From Acidobacteriaceae bacterium (GTDB lineage: Bacteria; Acidobacteriota; Terriglobia; Terriglobales; Acidobacteriaceae): 64,000 nt of DNA. Below the pieces are notes generated by a model. The model did not search any database. It worked only from the letters and a program-made list of their open reading frames with translations, and was not told the DNA's origin. The stretch lies in assembly GCA_030037705.1 (NCBI GenBank), contig JASHQE010000039.1:37468-101467 (forward strand), given 5' to 3'. Positions within the stretch are counted from its first letter, which is position 1; each line of letters starts with the position of its first letter. The position numbers were made by a program, and so were the translations under genes. Below, in pieces: positions 6,135-62,485 of this stretch.

Positions 6135-7655
6135 GTGAGTCCATTTTTGCTTGTTTTAGCCCTGGTTCAAAGTGCCGAGACGCGCGCATTCGTAAAAAGA
6201 GTTCTTGAGAGCGCTGGTCATCGAGTCATCGAAGCGGACGGATACCAGCAAACTCAATTGCTTTTGAGCAATGGCCTTTCACCCGACCTCCTGTTGCTTG
6301 CGTGTTCTCCTGCCAACTCGACTGAAATGTCTCAATGCCAACGGCTCTTGAGGAGCGTTCCGGCTGACCGCGTCTGTCTGGTTGCGGGAGTCGGCGAAGA
6401 CAAACTGCGGACGGAAGCTCGCGCACTTGGCATCAGACAGATTCTGTCGAATCCGGTTACGCGTTGCGAGATTGAATCCATGATGGAGAGTCTGAGTCAA
6501 GCGCAAGAGAGGCCTCTCGCGCCTGATTCGGTTCTAGCTTCTTCTGCAACGGCAAATGTGCGCGAGCTTGAAGCTTCGATAGACATGCCCGCGCTGCCCT
6601 ACATCGAAGAATTAGGCGGCGATCATTTCTTTCTTGCGGCGTCTCCAAAGATGCTGGAGATCCATCGCCAAGTGAAGCTGCTCGCGGAGACCGATGTGAA
6701 CGTGCTGATCCTGGGCGAGAGCGGCACGGGAAAAGAGGTCATCGCTCAGTTGATTCACCGGAATTCGCAAAGAGCGAACGATAAGTTCCTGAAGGTGAAT
6801 TGCGCGGCGCTGCCGGCTGACTTGCTGGAAAGCGAGCTCTTCGGGCACCGTCAGGGAGCTTTCACTGGAGCCATCAAGGACCAGCCGGGCAAGTTCGAAC
6901 AGGCGAACGGTGGCACGCTGCTGCTCGACGAAATCGGCGAAATCGGCGTACAGATCCAGGCCAAGCTCCTGCACGTGCTGCAGGACGGGCAGTTCACCCG
7001 CCTGGGCGGGCAAACGTGCACCAAAGTGAACGTAAGAGTTCTCGCCGCCACCAATATCCAGATGGACAGTGCATTAGTCGAGAAGACCTTCCGGGAAGAT
7101 CTTTATTACCGTCTGAGTGTGTTCACGATTCATGTTCCTCCGCTGCGAGAGCGGCGCGAAGAGATTCCCTACTTGATGGAGGAGACGATCCGTCGAGCGC
7201 CGGCTGCGATGAAGGGCCGCGCGGCAAGTGTGCTTTCTTCACGCTTGCTTGATGCGGCACTGCTCTACGACTGGCCGGGCAATCTGCGCGAACTGAGGAA
7301 TTTTGTGATCCGCACGATCATCATGCGCGACCCGGAGGCCGCAGCGCGCGAGTTGGAATCTAAAGTCGAAGGGCCATGCGGAGCATTTCAGGCAAGCTGC
7401 GCCAGCACAAAATCGCTTCAGGGCTTGGGAATGAGATCGGTTGTGCGCGATCTCAAGGAACGGACCGAAATGCAGATGATTCAAGATGCGCTGGAGATTT
7501 CCCGCTGGAATCGCCGCAAGGCTGCGCAATCGCTCAATATCAGTTATCGGGCTCTGCTCTATAAGATTCAGCAGCATCGCCTAACGCCAAGAACGGATAG
7601 AGATATGAATGGAGAATCTGGCGTCAACTATTCCGTCGAGAACAGCGCGACATAA
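6135..7655 (+). CDS. NtrC-type sigma-54 activator with degenerate receiver
   Basis: Bacterial enhancer-binding protein of 506 residues. A receiver-like domain (about 1-125) is followed by a complete AAA+ domain: Walker A GESGTGKE, intact GAFTGA loop (ELFGHRQGAFTGA), Walker B GGTLLLDEIGE, and FREDLYYRL with both arginine-finger positions. A Fis-type helix-turn-helix closes it (NRRKAAQSLNISYRALLYKI). It should activate sigma-54 promoters by ATP hydrolysis. The receiver lacks the acidic pair (LLVLALVQ) and the phospho-Asp is Ala56 (PDLLLLACSP), so classic phosphorylation is not possible. GTG 6135 follows AAGGTG at a usable distance. It resembles PrsR-like regulators of exosortase-linked EPS loci; its target is probably this locus, by inference. 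Confidence 0.9.
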   Translation: MSPFLLVLALVQSAETRAFVKRVLESAGHRVIEADGYQQTQLLLSNGLSPDLLLLACSPANSTEMSQCQRLLRSVPADRVCLVAGVGEDKLRTEARALGIRQILSNPVTRCEIESMMESLSQAQERPLAPDSVLASSATANVRELEASIDMPALPYIEELGGDHFFLAASPKMLEIHRQVKLLAETDVNVLILGESGTGKEVIAQLIHRNSQRANDKFLKVNCAALPADLLESELFGHRQGAFTGAIKDQPGKFEQANGGTLLLDEIGEIGVQIQAKLLHVLQDGQFTRLGGQTCTKVNVRVLAATNIQMDSALVEKTFREDLYYRLSVFTIHVPPLRERREEIPYLMEETIRRAPAAMKGRAASVLSSRLLDAALLYDWPGNLRELRNFVIRTIIMRDPEAAARELESKVEGPCGAFQASCASTKSLQGLGMRSVVRDLKERTEMQMIQDALEISRWNRRKAAQSLNISYRALLYKIQQHRLTPRTDRDMNGESGVNYSVENSAT

Positions 7656-8134
7656 CCAACACCGATTGCTGTTTACAAGTAGGAACTTTTGGCTGACTAA
7701 CCGGGACTAATTTGTCGTTACGCACATCGCTGCCAGCAGCGAGTGTGCGTTCCAGTCGCTTCACTCCTGAAACGAGTGCTGCCTAAGCTGTGTCTGCGCG
7801 AGTGGATAAGGAGGATTGTTTTGCGGATGAACGAAAAAATCCTGCGCGCAACCCGTTGGCAGTTAGGCGATAAACAGAAAGAAGGCGGTGTCGGATTGAC
7901 AGGAGAAGTGAAACGCTATGCACACATTGAACACGAAGTATGCAAAGCTTTGCAGAGTTATAGCCAGGCGCGGAAGAGATAGCGGCGCCATTACTCGAAA
8001 ATGCCCTAAAAAATGAAGACAGAACCCAGTGAATCGATTCGAAGTAAGTTCATCGTGATTTTACCTGCGATCCATATTTTGGCGAGATGCGTGCAGTAAC
8101 TTGGAACAGAACACTTTAACTCCGTCGGAGAACC
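7656..8134. other. Intergenic region between the two AAA+ regulators
   Basis: About 480 bases. ORF 7743-7982 (79 residues) has no family features and I do not accept it. No convincing promoter, hairpin or repeat stood out. Confidence 0.4.
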
Positions 8135-9166
8135 ATGCCCGCTGAATTGCACCAGGGCTTTCAAATAGATCCTGCAGATTTGCCAAGTGAAGCGGTCGTT
8201 TTTGGCAATACCGCAGCGATGCTTGAAGTGCGTGACAAGATCGAGTGCGCGCGGGAAGGCGATTTTCCCGTGCTTCTGCAGGGAGAGAGCGGAACAGGCA
8301 AGGATTTGCTTGCGCGGTATCTGCATCTGCGGTCAGGGCGGCGTGAAGGGCCATTTGTAAAGCTAAGTTGCGCGGCTGTCGCTCCAGGCCTGCTGGAAGG
8401 CGAGCTGCTCGGATACGAAGAGGGCGCCGCTCCGGGAACGGACGAGATCCGGTGCGGGTTAGTCGAGATTGCAAGTGGCGGCACTCTGTTTCTGGATGAG
8501 ATTGGACAGATGAGTTGGACGCTGCAGAGAAAGCTCCTCCATTTGTTGCAGAATGGCCGCTATTTTCGGGTTGGAGGGCGTGAGGAGCGGCAAGCGCAGG
8601 TCCGCATTGTTTGCGCAACAAACGTTAATTTGGCAAAGGCCATCGAGAAAGGAACCTTTCGGCGCGACCTGTTCCATCACATGGGAGTTATGTATCTACG
8701 CCTCTCGCCATTACGCGAGCGCAAAGAGGATATTCCTCAACTGTGGGATTTCTTTGCGGAGAAACTGGCGAGAAAATTCGGAAAGCAGGCTCCTCAATTG
8801 ACGCCCGAGGTGCTGCAGGTTCTGGAGCAGTGGAATTGGCCGGGCAATCTGTGCGAGCTGGAGAATTGCATCGCGAGGGTCATCATTTTGGGGGACGAAG
8901 AAGGGATTGGTGAGGAACTCCGGCGCCAGGCGGCGTTTACGAGCGCGATGGAGGGTCAACCGGAGAGGGGTTGGCGTTCTAAGAGCGTCTTGCGCCCGGC
9001 AGCGGCGGATGCGGTAATTTTGCAGGTTCTGCAGGCTAACCGTTGGAACCAGCGAAAAACGGCCGGGGAGCTGAAACGGAGCTACCGCTCGCTGCTCTAT
9101 AGGTTGAGAAACTCGGGTGTACTGCAGCGGCCAAGAAGCCGCCGGGGATTTTCACGTCCGGAGTGA
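8135..9166 (+). CDS. Receiver-less NtrC-type AAA+ regulator with altered GAFTGA
   Basis: 343-residue paralogue of the preceding regulator that begins almost directly with the AAA+ domain. Walker A (GESGTGKD) and Walker B (GGTLFLDEIGQ) are intact and a Fis-like helix-turn-helix is present (NQRKTAGELKRSYRSLLYRL). The sigma-54-contacting loop GAFTGA has become GAAPGT (YEEGAAPGTDE), and the second arginine-finger position is His (FRRDLFHHM). Known GAFTGA Phe and Thr substitutions usually abolish sigma-54 activation, so it may act as a repressor, an ATPase partner of the intact paralogue, or through another contact. ATG 8135 is at the natural domain start. It lies directly upstream of the UpxY leader, so EPS control is likely by position. 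Confidence 0.85.
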   Translation: MPAELHQGFQIDPADLPSEAVVFGNTAAMLEVRDKIECAREGDFPVLLQGESGTGKDLLARYLHLRSGRREGPFVKLSCAAVAPGLLEGELLGYEEGAAPGTDEIRCGLVEIASGGTLFLDEIGQMSWTLQRKLLHLLQNGRYFRVGGREERQAQVRIVCATNVNLAKAIEKGTFRRDLFHHMGVMYLRLSPLRERKEDIPQLWDFFAEKLARKFGKQAPQLTPEVLQVLEQWNWPGNLCELENCIARVIILGDEEGIGEELRRQAAFTSAMEGQPERGWRSKSVLRPAAADAVILQVLQANRWNQRKTAGELKRSYRSLLYRLRNSGVLQRPRSRRGFSRPE

Positions 9167-9269
9167 TTTACCGGAGAACGGAAGCGCTGACCTGTTTGTG
9201 CGGTTTGGGCTCAGATTGCGAGAGGGGCAGCACAGATGGTACTGCGGCATGCGGGGTGAATGCGGGCAG

Positions 9270-9291
9270 CGGTAACGGCTCGAAGTTACCG
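9270..9291. promoter_or_regulatory. Inverted repeat CGGTAAC-N8-GTTACCG
   Basis: Seven-base arms CGGTAAC (9270-9276) and GTTACCG (9285-9291), about 370 bp before upxY. Its half-site recurs in the tandem repeats at 9373-9411, suggesting one dimeric regulator; the protein is not identified. Confidence 0.4.
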
Positions 9292-9411: not shown

Positions 9412-9658
9412 GGGTTCAGGACGCTAGCACAAACCGGGAATTGTCACTCCCCGGTCGGGTCTAAGATTTTGAAATAGGGAAGATGTGCTCCAGTATCGGG
9501 ATACCCTTACCGGCCGGTGCAGGCATGTTAGAGCGTGAGGCGCTCGACGTGTGAGGAGCTTAGAAAGAAAATGGGTCTGTGACCCACAGGGCGAAGCTAT
9601 GTCTAGGCGGCTTCATTGGAAGAGAACCGCATACCTGCGGAAGAGGTGAGAAAACGGC

Positions 9659-10276
9659 ATGCCGATGCCACCGAAAATCGACAGCAGCTCGTACGAGGGA
9701 TCTCCTTGGTGGGCCCTTTACACGCGACATCAGCACGAAAAAACGGTGGCGGAGATGCTCATGACGAAGGGCTTCGATGTTTTTCTGCCGCTGTATGATT
9801 CCATGCGCCGTTGGAAGGACCGGAAAAAGATGCTTTCTCTTCCGCTTTTTCCCTGCTATGTCTTCGTGAGAGGGAACATCGAGAGAAAGCTGCAGGTTGT
9901 AACCACGCCGGGCGTGCACATGATTCTCTACCATGGCGAGCATCTCGCCATCATCCCCGAACAGGAAATTCAGGCGATCCGGGCTGCAGTGGAGGGAAGC
10001 TTTCGCGTAGAGCCTCACCCGTTTCTCAAATGCGGAGATCGGGTTCGCGTGCTGCGCGGCTCGCTTGCGGGGGTTGAGGGCATTCTGAGCCGCAAGAAGA
10101 ATCTTTATCGCCTGGTGCTCTCCGTCGACATGCTCGCGCAGTCGGTTGCGGTAGAGATCGATGCTGCCGATGTGGAGCCGGTGAACGGGCGCGGATCAGC
10201 CGGCGCATCGCAGGCCGGGCAGTTTGGCGGGCTGGGTATCTTCCCCAAGCCAATCGCTCTGGGCAGGAGCCAGTGA
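9659..10276 (+). CDS. UpxY-type transcription antiterminator (NusG paralogue)
   Basis: 205-residue specialised NusG homologue: N-terminal NGN domain beginning WWALYTRHQHEKTVAEML, with LPLFPCYVFVRG, and a C-terminal KOW-like segment (KCGDRVRVLRGSLAGVEGIL). By analogy with UpxY and RfaH it would bind RNA polymerase and let it read through the long EPS operon. ATG 9659 is eight bases after AGAGGTGAG. The stop overlaps a GTG (10273) in the frame of the next gene, suggesting coupling. Being first in the export block supports the role. The C-terminal tail of about 30 residues after the KOW region is unusual and glycine-rich. Family assignment is strong; the RNA or DNA element it recognises is unknown. 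Confidence 0.9.
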   Translation: MPMPPKIDSSSYEGSPWWALYTRHQHEKTVAEMLMTKGFDVFLPLYDSMRRWKDRKKMLSLPLFPCYVFVRGNIERKLQVVTTPGVHMILYHGEHLAIIPEQEIQAIRAAVEGSFRVEPHPFLKCGDRVRVLRGSLAGVEGILSRKKNLYRLVLSVDMLAQSVAVEIDAADVEPVNGRGSAGASQAGQFGGLGIFPKPIALGRSQ

Positions 10277-10362
10277 AACCGGAAGAGCCCGCGCGCGGAT
10301 GGCGCGTGGGTGAGACGAGCGGCGCGAGGCGCCGAGCCCTACTTATCCCCGCAGTTGGAACT

Positions 10363-11025
10363 ATGATGAACATCAGGCCCGATCGTTTTATGCAGCTGAG
10401 GCTTCTGGCTGTTTTCTTTTCGGTTTTCGTGCTCAGCCTGCCTGCTCCCGGCCAGGATACTCACGAAGCTTCGCCCGCCGCTGCGCCCGACGCAACTTCA
10501 CAATCCGCAACGCAACCCGCCAAGAATGTGACGGATGACAGTTTCGTGATCGGAAACGATGATGTCCTGTCGATCAATGTCTGGAACGAGCCGGATTTCA
10601 ATAAACAGTCATTGCCGGTGCGGTCGGATGGAAAGATTTCGCTGCCGCTCATCGGAGAGGTTCAGGCGGCCGGCCTGACGCCGTTGCAATTGCAACAGGA
10701 TATCGCGACCAAACTGCGCTCCTTCATCACCCAGCCTGACGTCACGGTGATCGTGCTGCAGATCAACAGTCAAAAGTTCAATATCCTGGGGCGGGTGGCT
10801 AAGCCGGGATCGTATTCGCTTACAGCGACAACAACCGTGATCGATGCCATTGCGGAGGCCGGCGGATTCCAGGATTTCGCGAAGCAAAAAGATATCTATA
10901 TTCTGCGGAAGAGCCCGAACGGCGTGGAGTCCCGCATTCCTTTTAACTATAAAGACGTGATCCGAGGCAAACATCCTGAACAGAACATCAAGCTCGAGCC
11001 GCACGACACAATCGTCGTGCCGTAA
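10363..11025 (+). CDS. Polysaccharide export protein, Wza/Poly_export family
   Basis: Periplasmic/outer-membrane export component. A signal peptide (LRLLAVFFSVFVLSLPAPGQ) is followed by a Poly_export domain (DDVLSINVWNEPDFNKQSLPV, SDGKISLPLIGEV) and SLBB-like segments (FNILGRVAKPGSYSL, DAIAEAGGF). No lipobox is evident, unlike E. coli Wza. The track starts at GTG 10273, overlapping the upxY stop and preceded by AGGAG, but that puts about 40 charged residues before the signal peptide; ATG 10363 gives a normal export signal. The start remains open. At 220-250 residues it is shorter than Wza (about 380), as in GumB/EpsE-type exporters of exosortase-linked loci. It is followed by barrel, GumC and kinase genes in the usual export-block order. 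Confidence 0.88.
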   Translation: MMNIRPDRFMQLRLLAVFFSVFVLSLPAPGQDTHEASPAAAPDATSQSATQPAKNVTDDSFVIGNDDVLSINVWNEPDFNKQSLPVRSDGKISLPLIGEVQAAGLTPLQLQQDIATKLRSFITQPDVTVIVLQINSQKFNILGRVAKPGSYSLTATTTVIDAIAEAGGFQDFAKQKDIYILRKSPNGVESRIPFNYKDVIRGKHPEQNIKLEPHDTIVVP

Positions 11026-11035
11026 AGGGCGATCG

Positions 11036-12370
11036 CTGCCGGCACAAGTCTGGCTGGGCTTCGCATTGCTGCTGGCTTTACCCGTCTGGCCGCAAGTGGC
11101 CAGCCCTATCGAAGGTGCTCCCGTTACGACCACAGACGATGAGATGGCGACGCCTCCGCCGGTAAGCGGAGCCGCGTTTCCAACTGCGGTAGGAGCGGAG
11201 ACGCGATCGAATTACATCCGCGGCGGCGTGAACTTTCAGACTTCGTATATCGACAATCTGTATGGGGGCACTGCCGGCCATCCGATTGGCGAAACCACGT
11301 TTTCACTTCTGCCCACGGTTACCATAGACCAGACCACTCCGAGACAGCACCGGCTTATCTCGTACAGTCCGGGATTTATATTTTACCGGCCTACGAGCTC
11401 GCTCGATGAGGTGAATCAGAACGCGGTGGCGGAATATCAGTTGCGGCTGACGCCGCACAGTTCGATCAGCCTCAACGATACCTTTCTGGACAGTTCCACC
11501 TCGTTCCTCTCCTCGAATTCGGAGGTGGGCGGCACGGTCTCCGGCTCAGCCCAGTCGGCAACTCCCGAGATCGTTCCTCCTTTTGCGCAAGAGTTGAGCA
11601 ATCAAGCCAACGCCGAGTTCAGCGTGCAGACGGGCCGCGACACGATGATCGGCATATCGGGAATGGCGACGCTGCTGCACTATCCCAACCCATCCGAGAC
11701 CTCGGGACTTTACGATTCAAGCTCGCGCGGAGGTTCGGCGTTTTACAACCGCCGGCTCACCGAGTCGCAGTATGCAGGCGCAACCTACGCATACTCGCAG
11801 TTCCTGACGTATCCGCCGAACTCGACAAGCGAGACGCAGACGCATACGATCTCTGCGTTTTACACGCTTTATCTGAAAAAGCAGCTTTCGCTCTCGATAT
11901 CCGGAGGGCCGCAATATTACTTAGTGACGCAACCCCCTTTCCCGAGCTCGAGCGCGTGGCAGCCCTCTATTATGGCCAGCATCGGCTGGCAGGGGCAGCG
12001 CACGAGCTTCGCCGCCAGTTATCTGCGGGAAGTGACGGGAGGCGGCGGGTTGCTGGGAGCCTACAAGACAAGCAGTGCGAATATCTCCGCACGCTGGCAG
12101 ATCGCTCGTAACTGGACTGCAGGTGTGGGAGGGGCTTATGCGAACTACTCGAATGTAAGCCCAGCCCTGTTCTCATCGACTGCGGGCGGCCACTTCATTT
12201 CGGGAGACACGACCCTGGAGCACTCGTTTGCCAAGCAGCTCCTGGTGGGACTGGAATACGACCGCATGCACGACAGCTATGGCGGAGTCACTTCCTTGAC
12301 TGCCAACCCGAACAGTGACCGCGTTTCCGGGTCGATTTCCTGGCAGTTCATGCGGGCAATAGGACGATAA
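11036..12370 (+). CDS. Outer-membrane beta-barrel protein of the EPS export block
   Basis: Predicted outer-membrane barrel of about 440 residues, rich in alternating amphipathic strands and ending in a strand with aromatics (VSGSISWQFMRAIGR). It resembles the PEP-CTERM/XrtA-associated outer-membrane proteins encoded between Wza and GumC genes and probably completes the export channel. The only standard start is TTG 11066, which cuts into the signal peptide. Ten codons upstream a CTG at 11036, preceded by AAAGGG at good spacing, gives a complete signal (PAQVWLGFALLLALPVWPQVA). No ATG, GTG or TTG lies between that CTG and the upstream stop near 10958. I favour CTG initiation; a sequencing error is the alternative. 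Confidence 0.75.
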   Translation: MPAQVWLGFALLLALPVWPQVASPIEGAPVTTTDDEMATPPPVSGAAFPTAVGAETRSNYIRGGVNFQTSYIDNLYGGTAGHPIGETTFSLLPTVTIDQTTPRQHRLISYSPGFIFYRPTSSLDEVNQNAVAEYQLRLTPHSSISLNDTFLDSSTSFLSSNSEVGGTVSGSAQSATPEIVPPFAQELSNQANAEFSVQTGRDTMIGISGMATLLHYPNPSETSGLYDSSSRGGSAFYNRRLTESQYAGATYAYSQFLTYPPNSTSETQTHTISAFYTLYLKKQLSLSISGGPQYYLVTQPPFPSSSAWQPSIMASIGWQGQRTSFAASYLREVTGGGGLLGAYKTSSANISARWQIARNWTAGVGGAYANYSNVSPALFSSTAGGHFISGDTTLEHSFAKQLLVGLEYDRMHDSYGGVTSLTANPNSDRVSGSISWQFMRAIGR

Positions 12371-12373
12371 ACC

Positions 12374-13963
12374 ATGCCGGAAGAATTCGAAGAACAAAAA
12401 TCGCAGTTTGACATTGGGCGCTATCTCGACATCGCGCGGCGCCGTTATATCCATTTCCTGGTGCCGCTCTTTGTGGGCTGGATTCTGGTATGGGGTTCGA
12501 GCTGGGTTCTGCCGCCGCGTTATAAGTCGAGCACGCTGATCCTGGTAGAGCAGCCGACGATGCCCAGGAACTACGTGACGCCCAACGTGAGCGACGACCT
12601 GCAGGACCGTTTGCAGAGCATTACGCAGCAGATTCTAAGCCGGACGCGGCTTCTGCTGATCATTGACAAGCTGCATCTCTATGGAGGCCAACAGGGCCGC
12701 ATGACGCCGGACGGAAAAGTTGCGGCGATGCGCAAAGATATCGACATCGAGCTGGTTCGCGACCCATCTGGGGCGATTACCGCATTTCGCGTCTCCTATT
12801 CGGCGCCGGATCCCCACACCGCGCAGGAGGTGACCAGCGAGCTGACCAACCTGTTTATCGATGAGAATACGAGGGTGCGCGAGCAGGAATCGGAAGATAC
12901 CACGGAATTTATCAAGAGCCAGTTGACGAGCGCGAGCGCAAGTCTTTCCGACCAGGAAGCCAAGGTGCGGGCCTTCCAGGCAACACACGAAGGCGAACTA
13001 CCGACACAGCAGGCGAGCAATCTGCAGATTCTGAGCGGGCTCCAGGCGCAGCTGCAGGGTGAGCAGGATGCGCTGAATACCGCAAAACAGCAGCGGGTTT
13101 ACGCGCAGTCGCTAATTGATCAGTACCGGGCTGTCCAGGGCACGACGCGGACGGCGACCGGAGCGCCGACCGGCATGGCGATCATTGATCAGCAACTCGA
13201 CACGCTCAGGCAAAAACTCGCCGACCTGAGCACGCGATACACAGATCAGTATCCGGAAGTGCAGCAGGTGAAGGACGAGATTGCCAAGACGGAAAAAGAG
13301 AGGGAGCAGGCCCTCGCGAATCTAAAAAACGATAAGGACAAGAGCAGCGGCGATATGCAGGCCGTGACCGATCCTGCGCAAGGCGCGCCACTCTTGCAAA
13401 TGCAGAGCCAGCTCAAGGCGGATGATATCGAGATTGCCAACCGTGAGCAGGCAATCACAAACCTGAAGGCCAGAATCAATGACTATCAGGGACGTTTGAG
13501 CGAGGAGCCTGCCGTCGAGCAGCAACTGGCGGATCTGACACGGGGGTACGATCAGTCGAAAGCCAACTTTGATGACCTGCTGAAGAAAGAAAACGATTCG
13601 CAGATGGCGACCAGCATGGAGCAGATGCAGGAGGGCGAACGGTTCACGATGCTGGATCCGCCAAGCCTGCCGCTCAAACCGGATTTTCCCAACCGCCTCA
13701 AGATGTGCGGAGCCGGAGTCGGCGCAGGGCTTGTGCTGGGAATTGCCCTGGTGGCCGGGCTAGAGTTTCTGGACGATCGCATGCATGGCGAAAAGGAGAT
13801 TCAGGCTCTTCTGCCGGTGGCGGTCATCTCCGAGATTCCGGAGATTGTTACACCGTCGGATGTGCGCAGCGGCAAGATTAGAATGGCACTAGGGTGGACA
13901 GTGGCCGCGTTTGTTGTTTTAAGCATCCTGGCTGGCACCGCGGTCAGCTATCTGCACGACTAG
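12374..13963 (+). CDS. Chain-length determinant, GumC/Wzz-type polysaccharide co-polymerase
   Basis: Inner-membrane protein controlling EPS chain length and linking polymerisation to export. It has an N-terminal Wzz segment (DIGRYLDIARRRYIHFLVPLFVGWILVW, first membrane helix), a long periplasmic coiled-coil region (about residues 170-430; many Q/E/K-rich heptads), the conserved proline-rich stretch before the second helix (MLDPPSLPLKPDFPNR), and membrane segments near 450 and at the C-terminus (WTVAAFVVLSILAGTAVSYL). At 529 residues it matches exosortase-linked GumC-like proteins. There is no fused kinase domain; the kinase is separate at 14948. It starts three bases after the barrel gene stop. 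Confidence 0.93.
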   Translation: MPEEFEEQKSQFDIGRYLDIARRRYIHFLVPLFVGWILVWGSSWVLPPRYKSSTLILVEQPTMPRNYVTPNVSDDLQDRLQSITQQILSRTRLLLIIDKLHLYGGQQGRMTPDGKVAAMRKDIDIELVRDPSGAITAFRVSYSAPDPHTAQEVTSELTNLFIDENTRVREQESEDTTEFIKSQLTSASASLSDQEAKVRAFQATHEGELPTQQASNLQILSGLQAQLQGEQDALNTAKQQRVYAQSLIDQYRAVQGTTRTATGAPTGMAIIDQQLDTLRQKLADLSTRYTDQYPEVQQVKDEIAKTEKEREQALANLKNDKDKSSGDMQAVTDPAQGAPLLQMQSQLKADDIEIANREQAITNLKARINDYQGRLSEEPAVEQQLADLTRGYDQSKANFDDLLKKENDSQMATSMEQMQEGERFTMLDPPSLPLKPDFPNRLKMCGAGVGAGLVLGIALVAGLEFLDDRMHGEKEIQALLPVAVISEIPEIVTPSDVRSGKIRMALGWTVAAFVVLSILAGTAVSYLHD

Positions 13964-13974
13964 GTTCCTTTACA

Positions 13975-14964
13975 ATGTATAAAGCTTTTTTCAAGCTTAC
14001 GCGCGACCCGTTCGAGCTCACGCCGGATCCGAATTGCTTCGTTCCAACCAAGCACCACGATGAAGCGCTCGCTTCTCTTTATTACGGCGTTCGGCGGCAT
14101 AAGGGACTGGTCGTCGTAACCGGCGAGGTAGGAACCGGAAAGACATTGCTGCTTCGATGCCTGCTTCGGCTTTTGGAGCAAAGCAAAGACATCGCTTATG
14201 CCTATGTTTTCAACAGCACGCTGAGTCCCACGGAGTTTCTGGAGTACGCAGTTTCCGATTTCGGGCTTTCGGCTGCTGGAAAGAATAAGTGCGAGCTGCT
14301 CACGGAGCTCAGTAAATTCCTGATTGCTCGCGGCACCAAACAAATGACTACGGTGCTGATCGTGGACGAGGCTCACCAGTTGTCTCCCGAGACACTGGAG
14401 GAGATACGATTGCTGTCGAATTTGGAGACGTCAACCGAGAAGCTGGTGCAAATCATGCTGGTGGGGCAGCCCGAACTGGATGAAAAACTGGACTCGGTGG
14501 GACTCAGGCAATTGAAACAGCGGATCGCGCTGCGCACGCAGCTCGTGCCGCTTACGGCCGAAGAAACGAAGACATACATTGAGAAGCGCCTGCGGATTGC
14601 CGGAGCTGACCCAAGCGTGTCGACGCTCTTTTCACCACAGGCTATTGTGAAGGTGCATCGGTATTCTCAGGGTCTGCCCCGCTTGATTAATACAATTTGC
14701 GAGAACTCTCTGATTACTGCCTATGCGCGGCGCGCATCCGCTGTTTCCGCGGAGATTGTGGAGCAGGTGGCGCAAGAGTTCCGTCTGGACGGGTTGGGTC
14801 CCGCTGCGAACGGTGGCGCAGAGTTCCGCGGCGAGACAAACGCGGCCCATCGGCCGGGCAGTAATTTGGAGAGGCACGTGGCGTTGCGAGGGGCCGTCGC
14901 GAGCGAATCCGGCTTAGAGAGGCCGGTTGCCCTCGAAGTGAGTAGTTATGAGTCAGATATTTGA
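13975..14964 (+). CDS. ExeA-like AAA ATPase (XrtA-associated type)
   Basis: Cytoplasmic P-loop ATPase of about 329 residues with the family opening MYKAFFKLTRDPFELTPDP, Walker A GEVGTGKT (about residues 44-51), Walker B VLIVDEAHQLS, and a sensor region (LVGQPELDEKL...LKQRIALR). Such proteins accompany exosortase/EPS loci and the general secretion ATPase ExeA; their EPS role is not well defined. ATG 13975 gives the canonical N-terminus; the track start at 13894 adds 27 unrelated residues. Its 3' end overlaps the kinase gene by 17 bases, implying coupled translation. The C-terminal 60 residues are low in conservation. Confidence 0.9.
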   Translation: MYKAFFKLTRDPFELTPDPNCFVPTKHHDEALASLYYGVRRHKGLVVVTGEVGTGKTLLLRCLLRLLEQSKDIAYAYVFNSTLSPTEFLEYAVSDFGLSAAGKNKCELLTELSKFLIARGTKQMTTVLIVDEAHQLSPETLEEIRLLSNLETSTEKLVQIMLVGQPELDEKLDSVGLRQLKQRIALRTQLVPLTAEETKTYIEKRLRIAGADPSVSTLFSPQAIVKVHRYSQGLPRLINTICENSLITAYARRASAVSAEIVEQVAQEFRLDGLGPAANGGAEFRGETNAAHRPGSNLERHVALRGAVASESGLERPVALEVSSYESDI

Positions 14965-15892
14965 TGCATTGCTCAGATCGGAGACGGATCGGGCAGGCAA
15001 AGATCCTGAAGCACAGGTGGCTACTGAGCTTTTGCAGCGCGTCGAGAGTCTCGCTGCGTCGCGATGGGAGTCTGTCGATCTTGCTTCAGAAGCCGAGCCA
15101 CAGGCGCACCTTGAGTTGCTGAAAGCGCCACAGCCTGGGACAGTCAATGGATTGCAGCCTGGTAAGCACGACGAGCGCGTAGTTGCGCTGGACCGGGTCA
15201 AATCTCTGTCCCTTTCGCCGGCGTCGGGCGGCCGGCTGGTGTGCCTGACCGACACGGAGGAGCCGACGGCAGAAGCATTTCGCTTGTTGGGCGTGCGGCT
15301 GAGAGACCTTCGCCGCACGCAGTCCTTGAGGAAAGTGCTCATCACCAGCACTGTTCCGCGCGAGGGCAAGAGCACGGTGGCCGCCAATCTTGCCTGTACG
15401 CTGGCGCACAAGGCCGAAGAGAAGATTCTGCTGCTCGAAGGCGATGTGCGGAGGCCTTCGCTTTCTGACGCCTTTGATCTGGGAAGAATTCCGGGACTCT
15501 GCGAGTGCCTGCAGGGTAAGCGCAGCCTGCAAGACAGCATTTACCGCATCGAGAAAGCGGATCTCTGGATTTTGCCGGCAGGCATTGCACCGAAGACCCC
15601 GCTCGAATTGCTGCAATCGGAAAAATTGCCTCGCCTGATGGACCAGTTGGCCTCGTTGTTCGATTGGGTGATTGTCGATTCTCCGCCCATCCTGCCTCTT
15701 GCCGACACAAGCGTCTGGACCAGGATGGTAGATGGAATCCTGCTCGTCAGCCGTCAAGGCGTAACAGAGAAAAAACAGTTGGAGCGGGGAATTCAGGCGA
15801 TCGAACCTGGAAAGCTGATCGGAGCCTTGCTGAACTGTTCTAAAACTTCAGCCTATAGCAGCTATTATTATCGTACTTCCGCCGGGTCCTGA
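14948..15892 (+). CDS. CpsD/CapB-type tyrosine autokinase
   Basis: Bacterial tyrosine kinase that, by phosphorylating its own tyrosine tail, regulates the GumC/Wzz partner and so polymer length. It shows Walker A (TSTVPREGKST), Walker A' (LLLEGDVRRPS), Walker B (WVIVDSPPI) and a C-terminal tyrosine cluster (YSSYYYR). The first 80 residues are a variable adaptor. At 314 residues it is a stand-alone cytoplasmic kinase needing the GumC C-terminus for activation. It overlaps the ATPase gene and is the last gene of the export block. Confidence 0.93.
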   Translation: MSQIFDALLRSETDRAGKDPEAQVATELLQRVESLAASRWESVDLASEAEPQAHLELLKAPQPGTVNGLQPGKHDERVVALDRVKSLSLSPASGGRLVCLTDTEEPTAEAFRLLGVRLRDLRRTQSLRKVLITSTVPREGKSTVAANLACTLAHKAEEKILLLEGDVRRPSLSDAFDLGRIPGLCECLQGKRSLQDSIYRIEKADLWILPAGIAPKTPLELLQSEKLPRLMDQLASLFDWVIVDSPPILPLADTSVWTRMVDGILLVSRQGVTEKKQLERGIQAIEPGKLIGALLNCSKTSAYSSYYYRTSAGS

Positions 15893-15899
15893 TAACGTT

Positions 15900-15927
15900 C
15901 GGTTCCGCGATCGATCCACGGGAACCG
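15900..15927 (+). terminator. Hairpin after the kinase gene
   Basis: CGGTTCC (15900-15906) pairs perfectly with GGAACCG (15921-15927), eight bases after the kinase stop, followed by ATCTTTCCTTCC rather than a clean T-run. It may mark partial termination between the export block and the priming transferase gene. Confidence 0.35.
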
Positions 15928-16109
15928 ATCTTTCCTTCCACTGAAATTGCACTTTACGCTGAGAGCGTATGCCGCCCATCGGCTCGCATGAGTGCGTTGC
16001 GATGCGCGGTGCCTGTCTCATCCTTCCCACCCCAAACATGTTTTTATCCCCTTGGTTCGCAGTGCCTGCATCGGCACCAGACACAACCAACCAGTTTAGA
16101 GAGGAGTAA

Positions 16110-17261
16110 GTGTTGACTATGCGAAGCGAGAATGGTGCCTCATCCATGGCCGATCCTCTATTGGAGTCCATATCGGCGGCGCAGCGGCTGCCCCTGGACG
16201 AAGAAACCTTCAGACGGATGATTGCAATTGAGCGCAAGCGGACTGAGCGCTCGAAGACCCCCTTTCTGCTGATGCTTCTGGAGATCACCAACCGGAAAAG
16301 CCCGGAACAGAACAAAGCGACGCTTGAAACGATCGTGACCGCGCTTATGGCCTCCAGCCGCGATACGGATATCGTCGGATGGTACCAGTCGTGCGCCATC
16401 GTTGGCGTCCTGTTTACTGGGCTGGTTGGCAGCGATAAGAACTCAATTGCCGACATGATCGTCAACCGCGTGAGCGCTACGCTTCTGGACGAATTGACCG
16501 TGGAGACCTTCAAAGAGGTCAGTATCTCTTTCCACTTCTTCCCCGACGATTGGGATCACGAAAAGCCGGGACGGCTCAGCAATCCCGCTCTGTATCCCGA
16601 CCTGGTGAAGCACGAGAAAGGCAGGCGGCCGCTGTTGCTGGCTAAGCGGCTGATCGATGTCATTGGCAGCGCGGTGATGCTCATTCTCTGCGCTCCCGTG
16701 TTTCTTGTGATCGCGCTCGCCGTCAAATTGACCTCGAAAGGGCCTGTGTTTTTCCGGCAGCAGCGCGTCGGTCAATATGGAAAGAGCTTCACGTTTTTGA
16801 AGTTTCGGTCCATGCATGTGAACAACGACAACAGCGTGCACAGGGAATATGTGAAACGGCTGATCGAAAGCAAGCCCGGTTGCGAGAACGGCACCGGCAA
16901 GAGCGTCTATAAGCTGACGAACGATAAACGGATTACGCCGCTGGGTAAGCTTCTGCGCAGGACCAGCCTCGACGAATTGCCGCAGTTCCTAAACGTTTTG
17001 TGGGGAGACATGTCGTTGGTAGGTCCTCGTCCTCCGATTCCTTATGAGCTGGCCGCTTATCAGACGTGGCATCGCAGGAGGCTTCTCGACGTAAAGCCGG
17101 GCATCACTGGCTTGTGGCAGGTTACGGGCCGCAGCAGCGTGAAGTTCGATGAGATGGTCCGTCTGGATCTCCGGTACGCCATGTCCTGGAGCCCGTGGCT
17201 CGACCTCAGGATTCTTATCCGCACACCTCTCGCGGTCATCAAGGGATCGGGCGCGTGCTGA
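16110..17261 (+). CDS. Priming sugar-1-phosphate transferase with GGDEF-like N-terminus
   Basis: Polyprenyl-phosphate glycosylphosphotransferase that loads the first sugar phosphate on undecaprenyl phosphate. The C-terminal half has the membrane entry helix (KRLIDVIGSAVMLILCAPVFLVIALAV), KFRSMHVNND, the catalytic region RRTSLDELPQFLNVLWGDMSLVGPRP, and PGITGLWQVTGRS. The N-terminal 160 residues are not the usual CoA-binding-like or multi-helix domain. They resemble a GGDEF fold (FRRMIAIERKRTERSKTPFLLML, RDTDIVGWY) with the GGDEF signature replaced, so it is probably non-catalytic and perhaps regulatory. Starts GTG 16110 or TTG 16113 follow GAGGAG; the choice is uncertain. It lies alone between a 217-base gap and the sugar trio. 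Confidence 0.9.
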   Translation: MLTMRSENGASSMADPLLESISAAQRLPLDEETFRRMIAIERKRTERSKTPFLLMLLEITNRKSPEQNKATLETIVTALMASSRDTDIVGWYQSCAIVGVLFTGLVGSDKNSIADMIVNRVSATLLDELTVETFKEVSISFHFFPDDWDHEKPGRLSNPALYPDLVKHEKGRRPLLLAKRLIDVIGSAVMLILCAPVFLVIALAVKLTSKGPVFFRQQRVGQYGKSFTFLKFRSMHVNNDNSVHREYVKRLIESKPGCENGTGKSVYKLTNDKRITPLGKLLRRTSLDELPQFLNVLWGDMSLVGPRPPIPYELAAYQTWHRRRLLDVKPGITGLWQVTGRSSVKFDEMVRLDLRYAMSWSPWLDLRILIRTPLAVIKGSGAC

Positions 17262-50446: not shown

Positions 50447-50456
50447 AGAAACCGCG

Positions 50457-57547: not shown

Positions 57548-57560
57548 TGGAGAACCCGAC

Positions 57561-59888
57561 GTGAGTTTCTCTTTTAAATGGCAGCCGATGCTGGCCGTGA
57601 GCCTTGTGGCTGTTCTTCTCTCAGCATGCTCATTCGATCCCAACGTTCGCAAGCAGAAGGATTTTCAAAACGGACAAAGCTTCTTCGACAAAGGGGAGTA
57701 CCGTGCAGCCACGGCAGAGTATGCGCGTGCTATTAAGGTCGATCCCAGTTACGCGGATGCGCACTTTCAGCTTGCACAAAGCTATATGCTGCTGCAAGAG
57801 CCTGACCGCGCTTACCAGGAGTTCGCCCGTACGGTAGAACTGCGGCCTAACGATTACCATGCTCGCCTCGCGATCGCGAATCTGGCGATCATGACTCGGA
57901 ATTTCAAGCAGGCGAAGGAGCAGACCGATTGGCTGCTGAAGGCGCGGCCGAACGACCCTGCCGTGCACTCGGCCATCGCAAGCCTTCTGGCCGCACAGGA
58001 CGATATTCCGGGCGCAATTCAAGAGGCGCAACAAACCGTCGCGCTTGCGCCGGATCGTTGGGAGCCTTATCTGACCTTAGCTCTCTTGCAGGCGAAGGAC
58101 GGTCAGGAAGATGCTGCGGAGGCCAGTTTCAAGAAGGTTATTGAGATGGACCCGAAGGAAGTAAAGGCGCGCGTGCTGCTCGGGACCTACTATCAATCAC
58201 GCAATCGTCTGGATGATGCAGAACACGAATTCCGCGATGCGATCGCTGCAGGTCCCGACAAGATGGCTCCGCGCACAGCGCTGGCTGGGCTTTATATGGC
58301 GGAGGGAAAGCCGGACCGGGCCGAGAACACTTTGGAACAGGCCAAGCAAGATCTTCCGCATGATCCGGAATGCCTGCTGGCGTTGAGTAATTTCTATTAT
58401 GTTACGGGAAATCTGGATAAGGCGGTCGGCGAGTACGATGCGCTTTATGCCGCGCACCCGAGCGACATTACGATCAAGAAAAAATACATACAGCTTTTGA
58501 TTCAAACCAAGCACTATGACAAGGCGCAGCAACTCGACAACGAGATCCTGCAGGCCAATGCCAATGACAGCGACGCTCTGGTTTATCGCAGCCAGATGCA
58601 GATAAGCGAAGGCGATATAAACGATGCCGCGCAGACTTTACAGACCGTAGTTACAAACGCTCCCAATGACAGCCTGGCGCACTACGTGCTGGGCGTTGCT
58701 CTCAATAAACAGGGTTATCCGGAGCGCGCCGAAAGCGAGTGGAAGGAGGCTCTGCAGCTCAATCCGAACTTTCTGGATGCGCAGCGCGCGATTGCCGACG
58801 AAGCGATGTTGAAGGGTGATATGACTGCTCTTCAAGACGCTGCCAACCAGATCATCCGGCTTGAGCCCGGGTCCCCGGAAGGTTACGCACTGCGCGCTCT
58901 TTCCAGCATCAATCGCAGCCAGTTTGAAGAGGCCGAGCGGGATGTTCGCAGGGCAATTTCGGTTGCTCCACAGAGCGCCTTCGGCTATGTGGAACTGGGT
59001 AACCTCAGGTTCGCGCAGAAACAATATACCGATGCCGCTAAGGCTTACCAGGACGCCTTGGATCGCAACGCCGGATCGATGGATGCGCTGCGCGGACTGA
59101 TGAATACATATAATGCGGAAAAACAACCCGACAAAGCCATTGCAGCGGCGCAGGCGCAGGTGAGTAAGTCACCCGAGAATAGCAATTTTTACGAGTTACT
59201 CGGCTCTGCCCTTTTTCATTCCAAGAAAGATCTCGGCGGTGCAGAAGCAGCCTTTCAGAAGGCTGCCACACTCGACGGGCATAATGCCGATGCCTGGATT
59301 CAACTTTGCCAGGTGCAGGCAACCAAAGGCGAGATCGACCAGGCCATTGCCACGGGTGAGGATGGGCTCAAGCTGAATCCACACCAGTCCGGTCTTGATA
59401 TCCTCATGGGAGATTTGTACGTGGCACGTTCGGACTGGAAAAAAGCGGAGGACGCCTACCAAGCCGCCCTGGTAGTGAGTCCGCAAAATCCCATCGCTTC
59501 CAATGATCTTGCCCGAGTGATACTCGATAGCGGCGGCAATGTCGATGTTGCACTGTCTTTGGCGCAGACCGCGCAAAAGCAGTTGCCCAACTCGCCGGCC
59601 GTGGTCGATACGTTTGGGTGGATCTACTATCACCGGGGCATGTACCAACTGGCAATGACGTCTCTCCAGGAGGCGCTGGCGCTTGAACAAAAGAGCCAAC
59701 TATCCGAAGATCCGGATATTCAGTATCACCTGGGCATGACCTACGAGAAAACCAAGCAGCCTGCGCTGGCCAGGGAACACTTTGAGGATGCCTTGAAAGC
59801 CGATCCGAACTATCGTGGCGCCTCTGAGATCCGCGCTGAATTAGCACATCTCCAGTCGGCGGGAACAACGGCGACGGCTCATCCCTGA
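57561..59888 (+). CDS. TPR-repeat lipoprotein, PrsT-like
   Basis: 775 residues. The signal peptide ends with the lipobox LLSAC, then about 18 tetratricopeptide repeats fill the protein (for example GEYRAATAEYARAIKVDPSYADAHFQLAQ, AYQDALDRNAGSMDALRGLM). TPR lipoproteins of this layout (PrsT) accompany exosortase A EPS loci and resemble scaffolds such as AlgK or BcsC repeats, helping to assemble the export machine in the periplasm. Assignment to PrsT is by layout and neighbourhood. GTG 57561 is near GGAG; the start is well supported by the signal. Confidence 0.88.
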   Translation: MSFSFKWQPMLAVSLVAVLLSACSFDPNVRKQKDFQNGQSFFDKGEYRAATAEYARAIKVDPSYADAHFQLAQSYMLLQEPDRAYQEFARTVELRPNDYHARLAIANLAIMTRNFKQAKEQTDWLLKARPNDPAVHSAIASLLAAQDDIPGAIQEAQQTVALAPDRWEPYLTLALLQAKDGQEDAAEASFKKVIEMDPKEVKARVLLGTYYQSRNRLDDAEHEFRDAIAAGPDKMAPRTALAGLYMAEGKPDRAENTLEQAKQDLPHDPECLLALSNFYYVTGNLDKAVGEYDALYAAHPSDITIKKKYIQLLIQTKHYDKAQQLDNEILQANANDSDALVYRSQMQISEGDINDAAQTLQTVVTNAPNDSLAHYVLGVALNKQGYPERAESEWKEALQLNPNFLDAQRAIADEAMLKGDMTALQDAANQIIRLEPGSPEGYALRALSSINRSQFEEAERDVRRAISVAPQSAFGYVELGNLRFAQKQYTDAAKAYQDALDRNAGSMDALRGLMNTYNAEKQPDKAIAAAQAQVSKSPENSNFYELLGSALFHSKKDLGGAEAAFQKAATLDGHNADAWIQLCQVQATKGEIDQAIATGEDGLKLNPHQSGLDILMGDLYVARSDWKKAEDAYQAALVVSPQNPIASNDLARVILDSGGNVDVALSLAQTAQKQLPNSPAVVDTFGWIYYHRGMYQLAMTSLQEALALEQKSQLSEDPDIQYHLGMTYEKTKQPALAREHFEDALKADPNYRGASEIRAELAHLQSAGTTATAHP

Positions 59889-60007
59889 ATTTGCTAGATG
59901 CGGATTGAAAGCCGCTGGCCGTTCCGTGCTGTGAGCTTTGGGCACAGCCGGAAGAGAAGCGGCCATTGTGCAGCTCTTTGCGGGGGCGCAAGAGCGCGCA
60001 TCTCATA

Positions 60008-60051
60008 CTCTTCCCGATAGGTGACTAACGGGTTCTGGTAACCGGGAAGAG
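60008..60051. promoter_or_regulatory. Hairpin with GGTAACC in the loop
   Basis: CTCTTCCCG (60008-60016) pairs with CGGGAAGAG (60043-60051). The loop holds CTGGTAAC (60035-60042), the octamer also found near 5482 and, inverted, in the UpxY leader. It may be a terminator-like structure after the TPR gene, or an operator for the gene at 60233. Confidence 0.35.
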
Positions 60052-60133
60052 GTACCCAAAAACTTCACCCTTTCGGATACACCAGGTGATTCTTAGGTTA
60101 TGTGTTTCCAACGAGTTGCAAAAACTATCTGCT

Positions 60134-60161
60134 TTGACAACGGACCGTATCGCGCTACGAT
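60134..60161 (+). promoter_or_regulatory. Sigma-70-type promoter of the PEP-CTERM-like gene
   Basis: TTGACA (60134-60139), 16-base spacer, TACGAT (60156-60161), about 70 bases before ATG 60233. The boxes match 6/6 and 4/6. Confidence 0.6.
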
Positions 60162-60232
60162 GAAACGAACGAGGGCGAACTATGCAAGTGCCCGTTAGCT
60201 TTGTTCATACACGAGAGTGGAAGGGGAAAATC

Positions 60233-60973
60233 ATGAAAATTAGAGCTATAAAGTTGGCAGGGCTAGCTGGATCGCTGCTGTTCTGCTTTGGGCTCCCAGC
60301 GATGGGGCAGCAACAGGTAACTGTACAATTCACAGGAGGTTATACCACAACTTGGGGGAATGCCAGCGGAGATTACGGCGCCGGAATTTACAGCGGCAAC
60401 ATTGACAACACGGCTTCTTCTGGCATCATCTGCGACGACTTCAACGATGAGATTTATGACGGTGAAACGTGGACGGCAAATGCCTTCCAGGCCTCGAGCT
60501 TGAATGCAAGCAATATCGGGGAGACCCTGTTTGGCAACACAATCGGGCTCACGGGCTATGCGGAGATCGGCACATTGGTCAGCATGATGTTCGACGGCAC
60601 GTCTACCTACGGCAGCATCACCGGAATCACCCAAGCCGAGCTCTCTTCGGCCATCTGGGACATCGGCATCGGAGGCGGGCTCCAGGGCCTCAATTCGACT
60701 GCCACTGCTCTTGTGGCTGCTGTGGAAGCGGCATTTGGCTCGAATGCAACCGAAGCCCAAGCCTATCTTTCCACATTGACGAATCTTTTTATCCTGACTC
60801 CGAATCCTGAGGGTCCCGGCGAGCCTCAGGAGATGTGGACTGAGGCGTCAATGGTGCTGCCGGCCCCGGAAGGCGGCGCGGCAATGTTGTACCTGCTGCT
60901 TGCGGGAATCACCTGTTTTGGAGCGATGTTCTTCAACGCGCGCAGGCAAGTCAGAGGATCAGTGACGGCATAA
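60233..60973 (+). CDS. Secreted protein with a PEP-CTERM-like C-terminal sorting signal
   Basis: About 246 residues with a signal peptide (KLAGLAGSLLFCFGLPAMGQ), a beta-rich body with ICDDFNDEIYDGETW (a Cys-Asp-Asp-Phe motif common in PEP-CTERM proteins), and a tripartite tail. The tail has a PAPEGG motif, a hydrophobic helix (AMLYLLLAGITCFGAMFF) and a basic end (NARRQVR). This matches the architecture of exosortase substrates, with PAPEGG in place of the usual PEP. ATG 60233 follows AAGGGGA; ATG 60182 adds 17 residues. It is preceded by its own promoter and followed by a strong terminator, so it is a monocistronic gene. Recognition by an exosortase is inferred, as none is in the window. Confidence 0.8.
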   Translation: MKIRAIKLAGLAGSLLFCFGLPAMGQQQVTVQFTGGYTTTWGNASGDYGAGIYSGNIDNTASSGIICDDFNDEIYDGETWTANAFQASSLNASNIGETLFGNTIGLTGYAEIGTLVSMMFDGTSTYGSITGITQAELSSAIWDIGIGGGLQGLNSTATALVAAVEAAFGSNATEAQAYLSTLTNLFILTPNPEGPGEPQEMWTEASMVLPAPEGGAAMLYLLLAGITCFGAMFFNARRQVRGSVTA

Positions 60974-61095
60974 CTGCGTTGATGAGCTGGTTTTGTTGGG
61001 CGGGTTCGGGTCCGGCACCAAAGCATGCCGTGACTCCGGGCAATTGACCTGGACCGGGTTGTATACCGCCCCTAGCGCTCTAATTTAACTCATCT

Positions 61096-61126
61096 GAGGA
61101 GATCGCAAAGCGATCTCCTCGTTTTA
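61096..61126 (+). terminator. Strong rho-independent terminator
   Basis: GAGGAGATCGC and GCGATCTCCTC form an 11-bp perfect stem with an AAA loop, followed by GTTTTATC. It ends the PEP-CTERM-like transcript and insulates the AAA+ gene downstream. Confidence 0.88.
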
Positions 61127-61180
61127 TCTCGCTATTCCTAAGCAAATCTAATACAAGCCTCCATACAATCCTTTTCTATT

Positions 61181-62485
61181 TTGGATCAGCTCAGTGCATT
61201 TTGCGCATTGGAGCCGGTCTCATCCATCAGATTCATCAACCAGGTTCATCAACTCACCAAGCATATGAGACCTCTTGGAGACCATCAACTCGAGTTAGTT
61301 GTGCGTAGTAATCTTTCCGCTGCGGATAAGAGAATCGAGATCGATCTTATGAGCGAGGATATCGAGTCCGTCGGAAACGGGCGATTTTTTATCGGAATTA
61401 GCCCGGTTACGAAGAAGCTCCGCGCTGAAATCGTATTACTTGCGGAGGTTGACGCGCCGGTGTTCCTTTTCGGTGAGGCTGGCAGCGGAAAAGAAACGGC
61501 TGCACGCCTGCTGCACGAACTCTCTGTCCGCTCCGGATTCGCATTCGCAAAGGTGAATTGCCCGGCTCTTCCGGAAGATCTCCTTGAACGGGAGATCTTT
61601 GGAGCGGCTGGAGTGACAGGCTATTCAAAGGCGAAACGCGGCAAGCTGGAACTCTGTGACCGCGGCACAATCTTTCTGGAAGAAATGACGGAGATGCCGC
61701 TGCGCCTGCAAGCCGAATTGGTGCGGATGCTTGAGAGCAGACGGCTTAACAGGGGAGAGGCGTCGGAAGACATGGAACTCGATGTGCGCGTCGTGGCGTC
61801 GAGTTGTATGTCGATCGAGCAAGCGGTTTCTGAGCGCAAGTTGCACCCCGGTCTCTTGCGCCTGTTCGGCGCGTATGAGCTTAGAGTGCCTGCGCTGCGA
61901 GAGCGCAAAGAGGAAATCCCCTTCCTGTCGCGCCATTTCATGCACCGTACTGCGAGGCAGTACGGCTTGCCCCCGCGGGAATTTCTCCCAGCAGTGACTG
62001 AAGCCTGGCAAGCGCACAACTGGCCGGGAAATCTGCGCGAGCTGGAACAGGCCGTAAAGCGTCACTTGGTCATAGGCAGCAAAGCATTCGATTTGGGAAA
62101 TAATCTGTTCGGCGCGAAAGGCGGAGCGCAAGAACCCGCAGGTACGGAGCTTCAGGTTGCGTTCTTGCAGCGTCAGGCACCCGGCGGCATCTGCGGTTAC
62201 AGATCTCTCAAGGCGCTGCTGCAGAGCGTCAAGGAAGAGGCCGAGAGGAGCGCGATTGCCTTCGCTCTGGAAAAAACAGGCTGGAATAGAAAGGCCGCCG
62301 CGCGGCTTCTTAAGACGAGCTATCGGACGGTTTTGTACAAAATAGAGCAATACCAGATGCATTCTCCCAGTGCTCCCGCATCTGCTGGCGTCGCTGAATC
62401 CGGCGGGAAGCAGGCGGAGTTCCGCAGCAGCCATCGGGACGATGTGCCGGCTGCCGATCTCTCGCGGATCAAAGGTGAAAGATAA
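61181..62485 (+). CDS. Strongly degenerate NtrC-type AAA+ regulator
   Basis: 434-residue protein with the order of a sigma-54 activator but altered key sites. Walker A (GEAGSGKE) is kept. Walker B is IFLEEMTEM instead of FLDEIGEM. The GAFTGA loop is shortened to GVTGY (FGAAGVTGYSK), and the arginine-finger stretch reads LHPGLLRLF, with both Arg positions lost. The Fis-type helix-turn-helix is intact (NRKAAARLLKTSYRTVLYKI). It can probably bind DNA but may neither hydrolyse ATP normally nor contact sigma-54. No receiver is present; the N-terminal 65 residues are unlike known sensors. TTG 61181 is the longest start; ATG 61265 or 61349 are possible. Confidence 0.82.
   Translation: MDQLSAFCALEPVSSIRFINQVHQLTKHMRPLGDHQLELVVRSNLSAADKRIEIDLMSEDIESVGNGRFFIGISPVTKKLRAEIVLLAEVDAPVFLFGEAGSGKETAARLLHELSVRSGFAFAKVNCPALPEDLLEREIFGAAGVTGYSKAKRGKLELCDRGTIFLEEMTEMPLRLQAELVRMLESRRLNRGEASEDMELDVRVVASSCMSIEQAVSERKLHPGLLRLFGAYELRVPALRERKEEIPFLSRHFMHRTARQYGLPPREFLPAVTEAWQAHNWPGNLRELEQAVKRHLVIGSKAFDLGNNLFGAKGGAQEPAGTELQVAFLQRQAPGGICGYRSLKALLQSVKEEAERSAIAFALEKTGWNRKAAARLLKTSYRTVLYKIEQYQMHSPSAPASAGVAESGGKQAEFRSSHRDDVPAADLSRIKGER

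Follow-up and report, generated by a model that had tools for sequence, protein, structure and literature searches.

Sigma-54 activators turned apparently sigma-54-independent at an exopolysaccharide locus of Acidobacteriaceae

Two descendants of sigma-54 activators encoded at an exopolysaccharide (EPS) locus of an Acidobacteriaceae bacterium have lost the sigma-54 contact loop independently of each other, and both have apparently been kept by selection. The locus lies in a stretch of 64,000 nucleotides (hereafter the window) from contig JASHQE010000039.1, here C61, of a draft metagenome-assembled genome of 5.13 Mb and 85% completeness. Three NtrC-type AAA+ proteins are encoded around it, P1 and P2 on its 5′ side and P3 on its 3′ side. 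The genome also carries a sigma-54 gene and about 12 further NtrC-type activators, nearly all of them with an intact or near-intact loop. The reading favoured here, to which we assign a probability of roughly 0.55, is that P1 drives the EPS operon via sigma-54, that P2 feeds back on P1, and that P3 acts as a sigma-54-independent DNA-binding regulator. The motif states, orthology, selection, operon order, dyads and promoters on which this proposal is built are read directly from the DNA.

A first-pass annotation of the window had described three NtrC-type AAA+ open reading frames (ORFs) with particular states of the loop, Walker B and Arg fingers, and the motifs and Pfam matches bear this description out: all three, which lie on the forward strand, match Sigma54_activat (PF00158), AAA_lid_14 and HTH_8 (PF02954). 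P1 (6135..7655) represents an intact activator. It carries GESGTGKE, GAFTGA (aa 241-246; 6855-6872), LLLDE and FREDLYYRL, with both Arg fingers kept (7089-7115), Walker A/B and sensor II also in place so that the ATPase site is complete, and a Fis-type helix-turn-helix (HTH) at 7506-7568. Its N-terminus is a weak receiver-like domain without the phospho-acceptor Asp (Response_reg 15.9 bits, cut-off 30.2). P2 (8135..9166) contains GESGTGKD, LFLDE and FRRDLFHHM, with GAAPGT (aa 97-102; 8423-8440) in the place of GAFTGA. In its Arg-finger region (8657-8683) the second finger is replaced (R168 to H), and the sensor-II Arg (8840-8860) has become Cys (PGNLCEL), so that P2 departs from a canonical bacterial enhancer-binding protein (bEBP) both in the GAFTGA loop and in the completeness of the ATPase site; some other P2 proteins encoded at EPS loci (EPS-linked P2s) lack the Walker B Asp. 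The P2 HTH (9044-9106) has LKRSYR in place of the L-x-I-S-Y-R of nearly all kin, and scores 22.9 bits against a cut-off of 22.

P3 (61265..62485) carries GEAGSGKE, GAAGVTGYS (a loop that aligns with two residues missing), IFLEE and LHPGLLRLF; both Arg fingers are missing, Walker B ends in EE, and the ATPase site is thus incomplete. The ORF as listed begins at TTG 61181; since all orthologues align only from ATG 61265 onwards, that codon is probably the true start (406 aa). Unlike its orthologues, the window's P3 has no receiver-like N-terminal domain, while its HTH is conserved (62282-62344) and has nearly the same recognition helix as that of P1. The DNA-binding ends, all three of which had been annotated as intact, are therefore intact in P1 and P3 and less so in P2. 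AlphaFold models of P2 and P3 from 11-sequence alignments reached a mean pLDDT (the model's own confidence score) of 78.4 and 75.9, respectively, with a confident AAA+ core and HTH in both, and the best structural matches of the P3 model included the sigma-54 activators NtrX, NtrC1, ZraR, FlrC and PspF.

Family- and genus-wide searches supplied about 190 proteins for alignment and tree construction. The GAFTGA loop is intact in all 42 P1-type proteins and in 36 of 37 P2-type proteins that are not EPS-linked; it is acceptably intact in 3/17 EPS-linked P2s and in 1/33 members of the P3 family. On these counts, loop loss exceeds chance and extends beyond one genome. In the tree, the P1-type clade encloses that of P3 (support 0.998, with the intact L055 as sister), and EPS-linked P2s form a separate clade (0.993), at the base of which stand the intact L061 and L170. 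On this topology P3 is read as a converted P1-type protein and P2 as a converted P2-type protein, the losses being therefore independent; the graded loss along one series put forward in the first-pass annotation does not match these two lineages. Support inside both converted clades is modest. The conversion looks confined to Acidobacteriaceae among the genomes sampled, because P3-like matches outside this family are intact P1-type proteins. The idea that P2 decays only in this genome, which came from a first broad P2 sample, was ruled out by the genus-level orthologues. Separately, in genome G112 an extra activator-like protein encoded just 5′ of Wza (L147, 16079-17146) has no L1 loop at all and may represent a third independent loss.

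Loss of motifs might also mean that selection on the paralogues P2 and P3 has relaxed and that they are turning into pseudogenes, as the freedom of their loops in sequence and length, the several P2 orthologues without an HTH and the absence of Walker B from some would suggest. This explanation is very improbable. Pairwise codon models give a ratio of nonsynonymous to synonymous change (omega) of 0.08-0.17 for EPS-linked P2 pairs, with likelihood-ratio values of 92-212 against omega = 1, close to the 0.03-0.16 of intact P1 pairs; three P2 pairs have an unsaturated synonymous divergence (dS) of 0.49-0.74. Omega also lies well under 1 for HTH-less P2s and for P3, but dS is high there. Besides, the frames have stayed open over long divergence, the P3 HTH is near invariant (mean conservation in the P3 clade 0.92, the highest of any segment, vs 0.27 in the loop, the lowest), and operon positions and sites are conserved. 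Random decay of P2 and P3 is thus disfavoured by the substitution patterns, as had been supposed at first pass. Free variation among orthologues, which the annotation had named as a sign against its view, is indeed found in the loop, with purifying selection elsewhere, and the combination therefore points to a loss of sigma-54 coupling and not to decay.

Judged from segment conservation, P2 and P3 erode in opposite ways: the P3 family keeps the HTH, and EPS-linked P2s keep the motor. Conservation in the latter is 0.90 at Walker A, 0.92 at sensor II and 0.61 in the HTH. Four EPS-linked P2s (L139, L171, L172 and L219) have no HTH and still keep Walker A, and the neighbouring DNA shows no HTH remnant in any other frame. 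In two P3 orthologues, L028 and L029, the entire AAA+ domain has been deleted in frame, leaving a receiver and HTH protein of about 235-265 aa; L028 matches Response_reg and HTH_8 above cut-off and has no match to Sigma54_activat. L028 corresponds to contig C75 of genome G216 (100% identity), whose P1 and P2 rank among the closest to those of the window, so this relative has the same triad with an AAA-less P3. A supposed mutual exclusion of P3 and EPS-linked P2 was dropped on account of this genome.

The gene order of EPS-linked P2 loci is P1-P2-UpxY-Wza, and the promoter elements before P2 were found only by footprinting against G213 and G216; matches to a strict TGGCAC-N5-TTGCW were no more frequent in the window than in shuffled sequence. 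A predicted enhancer-like dyad, AAGTATGCAAAGCTTTGCAGAGTT (TGCA-N6-TGCA, 7936..7959), is followed 144 bp further on by a sigma-54 -24/-12 element, TGGCGAGATGCGTGCA (8080..8095, forward strand), which lies 40 bp before the P2 start and is conserved in register across EPS-linked P2 loci. The dyad is found before all 17 of 17 EPS-linked P2 genes (0.09 expected), each time upstream of a sigma-54 element, and the enhancer motif has its single perfect match in the whole 5.1 Mb genome at 7936-7959. Before P2 genes outside EPS loci, a sigma-54-like element is present in 13 of the 14 examined (within about 65 bp of the start in 12) and the TGCA dyad in only one.

Which protein binds which site, whether mixed rings form and the sign of regulation are proposals drawn from these patterns. 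P1, bound at the enhancer dyad (7936), would switch on the sigma-54 promoter (8080) of the operon that begins P2-UpxY-Wza. As the first product of this P1-driven operon, P2 most likely enters P1 rings via its AAA+ domain, in a wiring like that from FleQ to FleT, and would there serve as a damping or tuning subunit that feeds back on P1. A positive role has been considered as well, in which mixed P1-P2 rings are active with GAFTGA supplied only by P1, similar to FleQ-FleT or HrpR-HrpS. It is consistent with the sigma-54 elements before P2 genes, whether EPS-linked or not, as FleQ drives FleT (PMC7277832), with the existence of bEBP hetero-oligomers (PMC9542535), and with the Walker A, Walker B and sensor II retained by most EPS-linked P2s. 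Nevertheless, the window's P2 has lost the second Arg finger and the sensor-II Arg, and others have lost the Walker B Asp, which argues for reduced ring activity and makes co-activation a doubtful, if still considerable, possibility.

The usual order in P3 genomes is UpxY-P3-Wza-(unassigned gene)-Wzz-ATPase-kinase, so that each operon type carries a GAFTGA-less, activator-derived protein beside UpxY/Wza; in the window and in L120, L125/L023, L223 and L029, P3 instead lies 3′ of PrsT and the PEP-CTERM-like gene. TGCA-N6-TGCA precedes UpxY in 17/17 P3-type operons (0.19 expected; 0-2 for other spacers). In 14 of the 17 it overlaps a sigma-70-like TTGCA[GC]-N17-TANNNT, with a spacing of 17 bp in 13 and of 18 bp in one, and it covers the -35 element and spacer. 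Strict sigma-54 elements were found within 800 bp in only 2/17 P3-type loci. No dyad was seen upstream of UpxY in P2-type loci (0/14) or upstream of Wza in P3-type loci (0/14). P3 most likely acts solely through its DNA-binding end at TGCA-N6-TGCA sites, and it is probably a repressor, or an autoregulator, because in most relatives the dyad covers the -35 element and spacer. The repressor role suggested in the first-pass annotation is in keeping with this overlap, repression itself being proposed from site position.

It could alternatively be postulated that P3 and its kin activate sigma-70 promoters, like VpsR and the NtrC proteins of R. capsulatus and Caulobacter. bEBPs without GAFTGA both activate and repress at sigma-70 promoters (PMC10274813, PMC3162934), and the P3-type operons carry a sigma-70-like promoter, not a sigma-54 one. 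However, the dyad position in the 14 loci is the one usual for repressors, and a window P3 without receiver and Arg fingers, together with two orthologues without AAA+, leaves no general ATP-driven step, so that activation is unlikely.

A further alternative, and the model of the first-pass annotation, is that P2 and P3 are DNA competitors of P1 at a single enhancer. The recognition helices of P1 and P3 are nearly alike, both operon types use identical half-sites with N6 between them, and P1's enhancer is the one exact dyad that lies between genes of the window. Sharing of P1's site by P3 is consequently plausible, and in this genome P3 could also occupy that enhancer, the part of the model that survives. 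P2, in turn, makes a poor simple competitor, its HTH being altered here and missing in the four orthologues that keep Walker A. Nor does P3 seem to have arisen as one, since it is operon-resident in G119, G141 and G070, which have P3 and the dyad and in which a search for P1-type proteins gave nothing at E<=1e-95; for that reason P3 is the best candidate binder of the dyad in these three genomes. As a whole, the competitor model is rather unlikely.

Several observations weigh against the circuit in which P2 feeds back on P1 and P3 regulates without sigma-54. dS exceeds 2 wherever the window's own P2 and P3 enter the comparison, and P2 could have kept its Walker A without mixing with P1. No exact dyad is present at the promoter of the window's P3 or of the PEP-CTERM-like gene, TGCA-N6-TGCA sites with one mismatch occur in the window at chance level, and P3 lies 53 kb from the enhancer. 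The counted loci are related, so that 17/17 overstates independence and does not stand for 17 separate events. Finally, GAFTGA-less activators such as R. capsulatus NtrC and VpsR can activate sigma-70 promoters (PMC10274813), and P3 might do so as well.

TyrR, DhaR, HupR, VpsR and the R. capsulatus and Caulobacter NtrC proteins are known GAFTGA-less activators that work at sigma-70 promoters (PMC3162934, PMC10274813). Like P2 and P3, they descend from sigma-54 activators and have a damaged L1 loop; they exert sigma-54-independent control, as is presumed here, and some of the known cases also control polysaccharide genes (PMC3162934, PMC10274813). The P3 clade shares with them bEBP ancestry, loss of GAFTGA and a retained HTH; in P2 the HTH is altered. 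Unlike in these proteins, the loop is here free in length and sequence across the clade, the loss affects two paralogues of one EPS operon, and AAA+ is gone in two P3 orthologues. RegA/PrrA/ActR-type regulators consist of a receiver and a Fis-type HTH. This architecture is shared by L028 and L029, which differ from them in having arisen through AAA+ loss from an NtrC-type protein and in the degenerate acidic pocket of their receiver.

In the FleQ-FleT system of Rhodobacter sphaeroides, a first activator drives via sigma-54 an operon encoding a second one (PMC7277832), and paralogous bEBPs are able to form mixed complexes (PMC9542535). Similarly to FleQ-FleT, and also to HrpR-HrpS and the VnfA paralogues, the second bEBP gene, P2, stands behind a conserved sigma-54 element and enhancer, with P1 as its presumed activator. 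Unlike FleT, EPS-linked P2s are missing GAFTGA and some of the ATPase site, the P1-P2 interaction is proposed by analogy, and the receiver-like N-domain of P1 has no counterpart in FleQ/FleT and HrpR/S, which are without N-terminal domains. PrsR, PrsK and PrsT are predicted regulators of PEP-CTERM genes in Proteobacteria, and the window resembles that system in its NtrC-type regulator near EPS genes, its PrsT-like tetratricopeptide repeat (TPR) protein and its PEP-CTERM-like protein (PMC1569441). Nonetheless, P1, P2 and P3 score 281.0, 234.3 and 188.4 bits against a PrsR (TIGR02915) cut-off of 502.6, no PrsK was seen nearby, and target site and operon differ.

What seems to be new here is that a single operon family has undergone conversion twice independently, that the promoter class has apparently changed, and that some members have shed the motor altogether. 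We tentatively suggest, at somewhat less than even odds, that one EPS operon family has repeatedly turned a resident sigma-54 activator into a sigma-54-independent regulator, with TGCA-N6-TGCA serving as enhancer in the sigma-54 type and as operator in the sigma-70-like type, and with erosion proceeding up to AAA+ excision and a receiver-HTH protein. If so, P2 and P3 would mark the two outcomes open to such erosion, P2 as a partner reduced to its motor and P3 as a regulator reduced to DNA binding. GAFTGA-less activators were formerly scattered cases; dozens of orthologues now form a stepwise natural series, from intact proteins through loss of the loop and of the Arg fingers to deletion of the motor, in which target site and promoter class can be traced in each genome. 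How a sigma-54 activator becomes an ordinary regulator, and whether promoter or protein changes first, thereby becomes a testable question. The work also offers a candidate EPS control circuit for Acidobacteriaceae, a large and little-studied soil group.

Downstream of P2, a UpxY/RfaH-type NusG paralogue assigned by family match, a transcription antiterminator, is encoded at 9659..10276 on the forward strand, as are all the genes that follow. The core EPS operon genes (10273..17261), whose order is conserved in P2- and P3-type loci, comprise Wza, a protein without Pfam match, a Wzz-like chain-length protein, an XrtA-type ATPase, a tyrosine autokinase and a sugar-phosphate transferase; the locus as a whole also includes further sugar transferases and a flippase. 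At its 3′ end stand a PrsT-like TPR lipoprotein (57561..59888; TIGR02917 at 300 bits, slightly under the cut-off of 312), which neighbours P3 also in L023, L029, L120 and L223, and a PEP-CTERM-like surface protein (60233..60973) with a C-terminal PAPEGG-transmembrane-RR tail. The latter, for which family profile searches gave no match, is the 5′ neighbour of P3, an arrangement conserved in relatives, and is preceded by a sigma-70-like promoter, TTGACA-N16-TACGAT (60134..60161, forward strand), identified by consensus match only. A PF09721 search found no exosortase in the window; the two exosortases of the genome sit on contigs C131 and C329, away from the PEP-CTERM-like and PrsT-like genes.

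Before UpxY, a leader element, GGGTCTGTGACCCACAGGGCGAAGCTAT (9573..9600, forward strand), differs very little among four genomes of the genus and may serve, like ops, to recruit the UpxY antiterminator. A similar element, GTGACCCAGAGGGCGAAGCTATG, directly precedes UpxY in P3-type loci. A cyclic di-GMP riboswitch at the leader element was rejected, with no Rfam match at gathering threshold or at E<=1. In L121-L136, the sigma-70-like promoter of the P3-type operons is preceded, 90-490 bp upstream of UpxY, by another conserved dyad (AGAGA-N6-TCTCTA) and by a block GAGA...TTCGCGGAG, which are probably the site of another regulator. The non-EPS P1/P2 pairs of L144-L153 are divergent and flank a conserved gene of about 310 aa. 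On the reverse strand of the window, 3225-5225 encodes an ASPM/HYDIN-type immunoglobulin-repeat protein, which recurs near the EPS loci of relatives.

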